This document shows, in pieces, positions 7,611-10,251 of a DNA stretch of 43,665 nucleotides. The DNA is from Flavobacteriales bacterium (GTDB lineage: Bacteria > Bacteroidota > Bacteroidia > Flavobacteriales_D > Sanyastnellaceae). The stretch's first letter is position 1. Each line of letters starts with the position of its first letter. The notes below the pieces were generated by a model. It saw only the letters and a program-made list of their open reading frames with translations, was not told where the DNA came from and did not search any database. The stretch covers positions 1 to 43,665 of the forward strand of contig JAIYBR010000221.1 of assembly GCA_027488435.1 (NCBI GenBank). Direction: 5' to 3'. Position numbers and translations under genes: made by a program.

Positions 7611-7708
7611 GTTAGATCAGTTTGCAGGGTAATACGCGCTCCGGCTGCGGTTAGTTACATTTTTTTGAAATTCGTTTTATCAGGGCATCTTTGCGGAAAA
7701 ACTATGTG

Positions 7709-8743
7709 ATGAAGAAACACTCATTTTTAATGCTACTATCCGTTCTTTTTGCGGGCCTCACTTCTTGTGCGATTGCACAGAAAATAGATAAGGGCTCGAA
7801 TGAAGAAGCGGTAGTTGCTTTCTATAATGTCGAGAATCTGTTTGATACAATCGATGATCCACTTACCATCGATGAAGACTTCACGCCAACGGGTAAACTT
7901 CAATGGACGGCACCGCGATACAATGAAAAGCTGTCGCGTATATCAGAAGTAATCGATCTGTTGCCGGGCGAGTTGCCGGTGTTCATCGGATTGTGTGAGA
8001 TTGAGAATCGTTCAGGACTCGTTGATCTCGTTAAGCAACCTAAATGGAATACAAGAGCTGATAAGGTTTCGTATGAAATCATTCATGCCGATAGTCCGGA
8101 TGAGAGGGGCATCGATGTGGCTGCTATCTACGATGCTTCGAGATTGAAGAATGTTCGCTTCGAATATTATTCCATTGCATTGCCCGACCCTAAAGATCCA
8201 AACACAAGAGACATTCTTCACGCTAGCGGAGTATTAGGTAAGGATGAAATTCATTTTTTTGTCAATCACTGGCCAAGTCGAAGTGGTGGACAGGCGGAAA
8301 GCGAACCGAACAGGTTCGCAGTAGCGGCCTTGTTGAGGTCTAAGGTAGATGCTGTCCTTTCAGAGAATTCGAATGCGAAAATTCTAATCATGGGCGATTT
8401 CAATGATCATCCAAACGACAAGAGTATGTTCGAAATCCTTGGCGCCAAGAATGAACCTTCAGCTCCACTTTACAATCAGATGTATGCTATTCATACAGCT
8501 GGAAATGGTTCTTATTTTTATAAGGGTGAGTGGGGAGCATTGGATCAAATGATCACTTCTTCCGGATTCATGATCACCAAGGGCTGGCATGTTGATGCGC
8601 AAGCTGCGGGTGTATTGCGCGATGAGAAGATATTGTTTCGCGACAAAGAGGGAATTGCTCGTCCAAGTAGATCCTATGCCGGCGACTCTTACAAAGGAGG
8701 CTACTCGGATCATTTGCCTGTGTTCATCAAACTGCAGAAATAG
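7709..8743 (+). CDS. Endonuclease/exonuclease/phosphatase family protein
   Basis: VAFYNVENLFDT, GLCEIENRSGL, HFFVNHWPSRSGG, ILIMGDFNDHPND and YSDHLPVF motifs. Start moved from track TTG 7691 to ATG 7709. Confidence 0.9.
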   Translation: MKKHSFLMLLSVLFAGLTSCAIAQKIDKGSNEEAVVAFYNVENLFDTIDDPLTIDEDFTPTGKLQWTAPRYNEKLSRISEVIDLLPGELPVFIGLCEIENRSGLVDLVKQPKWNTRADKVSYEIIHADSPDERGIDVAAIYDASRLKNVRFEYYSIALPDPKDPNTRDILHASGVLGKDEIHFFVNHWPSRSGGQAESEPNRFAVAALLRSKVDAVLSENSNAKILIMGDFNDHPNDKSMFEILGAKNEPSAPLYNQMYAIHTAGNGSYFYKGEWGALDQMITSSGFMITKGWHVDAQAAGVLRDEKILFRDKEGIARPSRSYAGDSYKGGYSDHLPVFIKLQK

Positions 8744-8780: not shown

Positions 8781-8810
8781 AAAAACCCCGCATTGCGGGG
8801 TTTTCATTTT
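8781..8810. terminator. Bidirectional intrinsic terminator
   Basis: AAAAACCCCGC-ATT-GCGGGGTTTT hairpin followed by TTTTCATTTT on +, with a T-rich run also on the - side; lies between convergent genes. Confidence 0.85.
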
Positions 8811-8824
8811 CGTTAATAAGAATA

Positions 8825-9325
8825 TTACTTCTTTGCAGCAGCTTTCTTAGGAGCGGCAGCCTTCTTAGGAGCAGCTTTCTTAGCAGCGGCCTTCTTAGGA
8901 GCAGCAGCTTTCTTAGCAGCAGCCTTCTTAGGAGCAGCAGCTTTCTTAGGAGCAGCCTTCTTAGCAGCAGCCTTCTTAGGAGCAGCAGCCTTCTTCTTAG
9001 GAGCAGCTTTCTTAGCAGCAGCTTTCTTCTTAGGAGCAGCCTTCTTGGCAGCAGCCTTCTTCACGGCCTTTGGGGCAGCGTGTGATTTTGACTTTGTTTT
9101 CATATTTGTAACAGTTGATTTGTGATTTACAATTTCATAAGTGACCTTGGCCGTAACGCAAAACTCATTCACCTTTCCATTTAACACTTTTGCGGTTTGG
9201 TCTTGAACATACACCGAACTAACACTATTGAAACGAGCCATTGCCTCCTCTACAACTTTTTCCGTAGCATCTTCCCAGCTTTTGGGTGAGGCATGTGTTA
9301 TCTCTGTCACTCGATAAACTCCCAT
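8825..9325 (-). CDS. Dodecin-like domain fused to a Lys/Ala/Pro-rich histone H1-like C-terminal tail
   Basis: N-terminus MGVYRVTEITHASPKSWEDATEKVVEEAMARFNSVSSVYVQDQTAKVLNGKVNEFCVTAKVTYEIVNH matches the dodecin pattern; then MKTKSKSHAAPKAVKKAAAKKAAPKKK...AAAKK (36 Lys in 92 residues, no acidic residue). Frame continuity checked across the junction. Confidence 0.85.
   Translation of the reverse strand: MGVYRVTEITHASPKSWEDATEKVVEEAMARFNSVSSVYVQDQTAKVLNGKVNEFCVTAKVTYEIVNHKSTVTNMKTKSKSHAAPKAVKKAAAKKAAPKKKAAAKKAAPKKKAAAPKKAAAKKAAPKKAAAPKKAAAKKAAAPKKAAAKKAAPKKAAAPKKAAAKK
8828..9066 (-). repeat. Imperfect tandem repeats encoding AAAKK/AAPKK/AAAPKK units
   Basis: On + strand, recurring 'gcagcagccttcttaggagcagcagctttcttag' units with little synonymous variation. 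Confidence 0.85.
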
Positions 9326-9357: not shown

Positions 9358-10251
9358 TTAAAAAAACAATCCGTGAAATTTTATTTTTCCATTATCACGA
9401 ATTTCAAAAGTTGGTCCTGGAATTTTTATGAAGCTTAAAACTTTCGCTGTTCGCCGCATCCATTTTTTCTTCCATCGAACACGTTCCAAATCTGCATCAA
9501 ATGAAAAGTAGAATTCACGCTCACGTTGAAAATTATTAACATCATCAACAACGAAATTTGCACTCGTCATTTTAGTTGCACCATATCCAATTGCAACATT
9601 AAGCCACCTCGGGAAATCCGCGCCAGAAGCCAGAAATCGATGTATGTTGAATGATGCCCAGTATGTTTGTGCGTTGTAGTCTTTTAAAATGCGTTGTTGA
9701 AAATTACGACCAAGTGTTGATTCATTCATCACTGCAAATGTTGATGGAGTGTAAGAAAATTTTAGTGCGATGCGTTGCTCTTTCCAAAAAAAATCTTGTG
9801 TTGCATACACGAAAATTCCACTCGCATTCGCAAGCATGTCACCCCATGAGAATCCCCACTGCGCACTTCGCCCATCTAATATTTCTATGCTCGTCATATA
9901 GAGCAGACTTGTTGAAATGCCGCGCCAATTGTCTTTTCCAGAAGGTTGTGCCCACGAATAGAAATCGGAAAGTTGTTTGGCAAGCAAATAAGATGTGAAT
10001 GCATGTCCGGCTTTATCTACCTGAAGCCATTCACTGTTGTCGTTAAAGGAGTGAAGCTTGGTACGGGGAAAATTTTTGTACCACAATTCATTTAGCAACG
10101 TATAGCTGATGCCTGCTGTTGCCATACAACTGCTCCATGCGATTACATCACGTCGCTTGAAGTTTGTTGTATCTTTTTGCGAGAATGAGTTGGAATGAAA
10201 ATGCAGAAGAGCGATGAGCAGAAGGTGAACAATCCAAGTTTTTATTTTCAT
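9358..10251 (-). CDS. DUF2279-like (YfiM-type) secreted protein
   Basis: WLQVDKAGHAFTSYLLAKQLSDFYSWA ... WGFSWGDMLANASGIFVYATQDFFWKEQRIALKFSYTPS. Confidence 0.7.
   Translation of the reverse strand: MKIKTWIVHLLLIALLHFHSNSFSQKDTTNFKRRDVIAWSSCMATAGISYTLLNELWYKNFPRTKLHSFNDNSEWLQVDKAGHAFTSYLLAKQLSDFYSWAQPSGKDNWRGISTSLLYMTSIEILDGRSAQWGFSWGDMLANASGIFVYATQDFFWKEQRIALKFSYTPSTFAVMNESTLGRNFQQRILKDYNAQTYWASFNIHRFLASGADFPRWLNVAIGYGATKMTSANFVVDDVNNFQREREFYFSFDADLERVRWKKKWMRRTAKVLSFIKIPGPTFEIRDNGKIKFHGLFF

Follow-up and report, generated by a model that had tools for sequence, protein, structure and literature searches.

A single minus-strand frame of the window (by which we mean the whole 43,665-nt stretch of DNA that was analysed) encodes a dodecin-like domain that runs without interruption into a long lysine-rich tail. 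The locus raises the question of whether this combination is a genuine protein architecture, where its two halves come from and what the gene makes. The features on which the answer depends are collected in Table 1.

Table 1. Features of the composite locus and its surroundings, with positions in the window.
Feature	Position	Strand	Basis or remarks
Convergent endonuclease/exonuclease/phosphatase-like gene (our reading)	7691..8743	+	Right synteny anchor
Terminator-like hairpin, 11 pairs + T run	8781..8805	-	Just past the stop codon; similar hairpin in other species
Composite gene, 166-aa dodecin-H1-like fusion ORF	8825..9325	-	Single frame, ATG to TAA; kept in 8/8 genomes of the genus
H1-like ORF, 92 aa (MKTKSKSHAAPKAVKK then AAAKK/AAPKK repeats)	8825..9103	-	Stand-alone counterparts in g4, g11, g17, g19, g20
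Met75, probable start codon within the ORF for the stand-alone H1-like protein	9101..9103	-	A at -3, -6, -12, -13; low-structure site
Codons 66-74 (VNHKSTVTN), deduced former 5' leader now read as linker	9104..9130	-	Nucleotide conservation; homologous untranslated leader before stand-alone genes
Core leader motif AATCAAC(C/T)GTT (AATCAACCGTT, 11 nt)	9110..9120	-	12/12 loci, 7 genera
Dodecin domain, residues 3-65	9131..9319	-	Pfam, AF2 model + Foldseek, PDB profile search, dN/dS
Upstream neighbour, DUF2279-like (our reading)	9358..10251	-	Left synteny anchor; 32 nt between its end and the dodecin start

The N-terminal part is a dodecin

The sequence-only reading of this ORF had proposed a dodecin-like N-terminal part, and had named the lack of an HMM or structure match as grounds for abandoning the idea. 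Both kinds of search returned dodecins. Residues 3-65 match Pfam Dodecin (PF07311) with an E-value of 8e-16 and a score of 58.6 bits, against a curated cut-off of 22.5, which places the domain in that family. In an AF2 monomer model built from seven genus-level sequences, block-mean pLDDT was 92-96 over residues 11-60 and confidence was low from residue 68 on; the strands and helix (E3-13, H17-31, E35-48, E51-65) follow the order expected of the family, i.e. beta-alpha-beta-beta. A Foldseek search of the PDB gave 26 matches to dodecin entries at E <=0.001, the best of them all dodecins (probability 1.00, TM ~0.8), and the closest solved sequence in a PDB profile search was SecE2/Rv0379, the 'calcium dodecin' (PDB 3onr, 2.6e-10).

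The dodecin part is under purifying selection, with dN/dS of 0.04-0.22 among the seven closer species (dS is near saturation in comparisons with G002, the remaining genome). No stop codon lies between the dodecin and the tail, so that the fusion must be translated whenever the dodecin is. By analogy with its family, the dodecin part plausibly forms a 12-mer that would display the tails. In a studied dodecin both termini are exposed on the surface of the particle and tolerate fused cargo (PMC7414021), so that twelve outward tails are sterically reasonable. The charge of the Lys-rich tails could hinder assembly of the 12-mer.

The tail is H1-like in composition

The cationic tail of 92 aa with 36 Lys and no acidic residues that the sequence-only reading described is confirmed by recounting: residues 75-166 comprise 36 Lys, 41 Ala and 9 Pro among others, with Asp, Glu and Arg all at zero. 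This is a long low-complexity K/A/P tail without acidic residues, i.e. the H1-like Lys/Ala/Pro kind of AlgP, Hc2 and BpH1. The match of the tail to the NCBIfam model NF038053 (hist_H1_lk_Burk, Burkholderia; 1.8e-9, 38.2 bits) lies well under that model's own cut-off of 80, so that the tail is not filed as a member and is H1-like in composition only. Tails of the KPAA type bind DNA (PMC9239181), and the composition of the present one suggests that it, too, would bind DNA or another polyanion. Species differ in the number of AAAKK/AAPKK units, and with it in the length of the tail, which ranges over 71-102 residues.

The fusion is shared by a whole genus

The genome to which the window belongs (2.7 Mb, 89% complete) has a single dodecin and falls in a genus of uncultured Flavobacteriales. 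The sequence-only reading had proposed a check of conservation in relatives, and the same in-frame fusion is present, with one dodecin copy each, in all 8 available genomes of the genus, which are separate assemblies. At the junction there is exactly one codon difference between G002 and the rest, and the frame is kept. An assembly chimera or frameshift is ruled out by the presence of the fusion in 8 of 8 genomes. That an assembly or annotation artefact has joined two genes might be suspected from the H1-like half being a separate gene in other genera; however, the fusion is common to eight separately assembled genomes whose dodecin parts diverge by up to ~40% at the nucleotide level, and this conservation leaves the artefact with virtually no probability. 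The earlier concern about a frameshift between genes that are separate in relatives was therefore right in one part and wrong in the other: the H1-like gene does stand apart in other genera (without a dodecin there), but the fusion is genus-wide and not a frameshift. All eight fused genomes belong to one genus, so that they represent few independent events.

Dodecins were present in 24 of the 299 genomes of the order, i.e. the 8 with the fusion and 16 others without a cationic tail, and the sampled dodecins of the order end at about residue 66-70. No dodecin was found in any sampled genome of the family outside this genus. In the phylum, dodecins were present in 167 of 396 genomes, and none of the best-scoring and longest frames inspected carried an H1-like tail. 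The long open dodecin frames inspected in other Bacteroidota were mostly upstream extensions; long C-terminal tails were seen in these frames only in a Hymenobacter-like family, where they are acidic and Gly-rich, and in one truncated-looking frame (L071).

Two other departures from the usual dodecin outline were observed in this survey. In L065, L066 and L067, a family that we take, as a guess, to be Hymenobacter-like, the acidic and Gly-rich C-terminal extension is conserved over ~60 residues and ends ...GGSATEPESGGGYSG. In the dodecin L157 (genome G184), 16 additional residues (about VSFPKNSPVFGEAYTS) separate the first strand from the helix; the otherwise near-identical L156 lacks them.

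No description of a dodecin-H1-like fusion of this kind was found in the open-access literature searched. The architecture is genuine and, judging from the papers and genomes examined, has not been described before. What is new is the way in which known parts are combined, not the kind of system.

Flavin binding is not supported

Flavin-binding dodecins have a Trp that stacks on the flavin and a Gln that contacts the isoalloxazine. In an ungapped alignment to the flavin-binding dodecin 2vxa, Ser37 occupies the position of the stacking Trp, as the sequence-only reading had already seen by eye, and Cys56 occupies that of the Gln, i.e. the ORF has neither residue of a flavin-binding dodecin. The same reading had suggested that the protein might couple flavin or redox state to chromatin. 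The ORF does belong to the dodecin fold family in which flavin binding occurs, but with the Trp and the Gln both absent, a calcium dodecin (SecE2) as the nearest solved sequence by profile, and no stacking Trp in any of the order-level dodecins inspected, a flavin or redox role is not supported and we regard a flavin- or redox-coupled chromatin protein as very improbable. Ser is found at the stacking-Trp position in stand-alone dodecins of the order as well. Since the Trp is also missing from the order-level dodecins inspected, its loss is unrelated to the fusion.

The tail has stand-alone counterparts in sister genera

We searched 80 relatives with the first 54 residues of the tail and read the matches. 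In six sister genera an H1-like gene without a dodecin is present at the same locus. In five of these (g4, g11, g17, g19 and g20) it is clearly a stand-alone gene whose start Met is the equivalent of Met75, and the proteins of g11, g17 and g19 begin MKTKSKS(A/H/N)AAPK. An in-frame stop lies 5-13 codons before the H1-like Met in all five, with no start codon between the two, and the H1-like gene is therefore separate in these genera. The sister-genus genes sit between counterparts of the two synteny anchors, and the counterpart of the upstream neighbour adjoins the H1-like gene in g1, g4, g8, g11, g17, g19 and g20. The distance from the upstream gene to the H1-like ATG is 54-91 nt in these five genera, as against 254-271 nt in the fused genus, where the interval is filled by the dodecin.

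Comparison of these loci indicates that the apparent 'linker' derives from the 5' leader of the H1-like gene, and the beginning of the tail from its start codon, both of which sister genera keep in a stand-alone gene. The sequence-only reading had missed this history, in which the tail goes back to an older gene, separate at this locus in five sister genera, whose leader and start are kept in the fusion.

The same leader is present in g8 (L083 1291-1497 (+) and L085 (-)), where 57-58 open codons (MIHQSN... / MNNLSN...) without similarity to dodecin precede the H1-like gene in the same frame. This stretch may be a second, unrelated N-terminal extension or may be due to chance. The gap before the H1-like ATG is also ~240 nt in g8, and a decayed dodecin was considered there and rejected, as no dodecin signal was found in any forward frame.

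The leader is conserved inside the coding sequence

In 12 of 12 representative loci, drawn from 7 genera, the core motif AATCAAC(C/T)GTT is followed after 6-7 nt by the H1-like ATG, whereas agreement in most columns upstream of the motif is limited to between one third and two thirds of the 12 loci. Within the fused genus, the leader of G002 is identical to that of six other species at 27 of 27 nucleotides (26 of 27 in the window), against ~38% nucleotide divergence in the dodecin part of the same pairs. Averaged over all pairs, nucleotide divergence is 0.9% in the leader vs 23% in the dodecin part, and codons that specify the same amino acid are identical in 66% of cases in the dodecin, 97% in the leader and 87% in the first 20 tail codons, a test that leans on one deep split, i.e. 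G002 vs the rest. Selection at the protein level does not by itself account for the conservation of the leader, as its core bases are preserved in untranslated form as well.

These results bear on the possibility that only the 166-aa fusion is made, the leader being a relic that serves as linker and the 12-mer version having replaced the free H1-like protein, which corresponds to the sequence-only reading minus its flavin part. Such a reading fits the open frame, which is without a stop in 8 of 8 species and survives the one-codon difference of G002 at the junction, and it fits the result that the fused genus yielded no further H1-like gene with this N-terminus. However, the third-codon positions of the leader are frozen while the dodecin has diverged, the same leader nucleotides are kept untranslated in sister genera, and the initiation determinants at Met75 are complete (see below); we therefore consider production of the fusion as sole product unlikely.

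Alternatively, the conservation of the leader could reflect a function in transcription and not in internal translation. The Bacteroidetes -7 promoter motif TAnnTTTG was not found near or before the leader in any of the 12 loci. No Rfam element was found around the locus, and a search for a leader regulon gave no clear sign of one, with 9 sites for a looser form of the motif in its own genome vs 5 for the backward control.

Met75 is a likely internal start codon

Bacteroidota are naturally without Shine-Dalgarno sequences, and in F. johnsoniae initiation is favoured by adenines at -3, -6, -12 and -13 together with low structure (PMC6847099). Among the 224 in-frame internal ATGs in 24 genes of the window, Met75 is the only one with A at all four of these positions, and in 8 species the site ranks at the 88th-98th percentile of ORF positions for low structure. 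The in-frame internal start codon is preceded by a conserved initiation region. Internal initiation at Met75 appears likely from these features, and the one gene probably makes two proteins, i.e. the dodecin-H1 fusion and a free 92-aa H1-like protein. No promoter for a separate short-form transcript was recognised.

A composite gene with two probable products

The best explanation of the locus, which we hold with moderate confidence, is a composite gene with two products, namely the fusion, which would probably be a 12-mer bearing 12 tails, and the H1-like protein on its own. A dodecin coding sequence would have been joined in frame, without a stop, before an ancestral stand-alone H1-like gene, and the leader of that gene would have become a 9-residue linker. 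Translation from nt 9325 would give the 166-aa protein, whose dodecin part would assemble into a 12-mer with 12 flexible Lys-rich tails on its surface. With its 12 tails the particle would bind DNA (or RNA or polyphosphate) multivalently. Translation would also start from Met75 via the retained leader and yield the ancestral product, the free 92-aa H1-like protein. The tail would be common to both forms, and the dodecin part would cluster what is otherwise a monovalent binder of polyanions, so that it could bridge or condense them. Neither flavin nor redox sensing would play a part.

We also put forward, as a tentative possibility, that the gene encodes a nucleoid protein in two forms, free H1-like monomers and tailed 12-mer dodecin particles. 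The ratio of the two, set by the old leader, would tune the bridging and condensation of DNA (or of polyphosphate or RNA), and the arrangement would be a genus-specific means of making a monovalent H1-like protein multivalent.

A further explanation is that the halves act separately, the dodecin in storage or ion binding and the H1-like part as a nucleoid protein, and that the link between them is incidental or is cut in the Lys-rich linker. Both halves are complete in themselves and are known to function on their own, and Lys-rich linkers are sensitive to proteases. However, no cleavage motif is evident and a stop has been regained in none of the 8 species, though a one-base shift at the junction would give TAA, and separate action of the halves seems quite improbable to us.

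If both products are made, the locus illustrates how a protein may become multivalent and yet keep its original form. It also allows a direct test of whether multivalency is enough to make an H1-like polycation act as a nucleoid protein that condenses or bridges. The evolutionary result is more informative than the architecture: the fusion retains, within its coding sequence, the leader that belonged to the downstream gene. The locus offers a clear before-and-after case of domain fusion: sister genera have the separate gene with its leader, and in one genus a particle-forming domain has been joined to it, with the leader inside the coding sequence. The 11-nt core of the leader also deserves study for its own sake, as a sharply defined cis-element that 7 genera have kept in a phylum that lacks Shine-Dalgarno sequences.

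Comparison with known systems

Among solved dodecins, the calcium dodecin SecE2/Rv0379 of M. tuberculosis (3onr) has the same fold, domain length and HMM match as the N-terminal part described here, and likewise has no Trp at the flavin-stacking position. Compared with dodecins (PF07311) in general, the present ORF adds a cationic C-terminal extension of 71-102 aa. A 12-mer with cationic tails is known to compact DNA in the case of Dps with Lys-rich tails; this is a likeness in working only, as Dps has a ferritin fold and an N-terminal tail and is unrelated.

The chlamydial protein Hc2 (HctB) has Lys-rich repeats and a length that varies between strains (PMC2848022), which resembles the variation in tail length seen here; Hc2 has no dodecin, and the two are compared by type of repeat and not by sequence relationship. 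AlgP and PhaF of Pseudomonas combine a domain with an H1-like KPAA tail and act in the positioning of polyphosphate or PHA granules and in nucleoid association (PMC9239181). As in the present protein, an N-terminal domain (helical or granule-binding in AlgP and PhaF) is followed by a disordered Lys/Ala/Pro repeat tail, which in those proteins binds DNA. By analogy, the tails of the fusion may join a particle to the nucleoid or to polyphosphate, as such tails can in AlgP and PhaF (PMC9239181). The present protein differs from AlgP and PhaF in that its N-terminal domain is a dodecin and in that its tail has a conserved leader and start codon of its own. The stand-alone H1-like genes of the family (L087, L094, L137, L088 and L095) share with the composite gene the locus, the leader core and the repeat composition, and those of g11, g17 and g19 also share the N-terminus of its tail (MKTKSKS.AAPK); they differ from it in having no dodecin fused to them.
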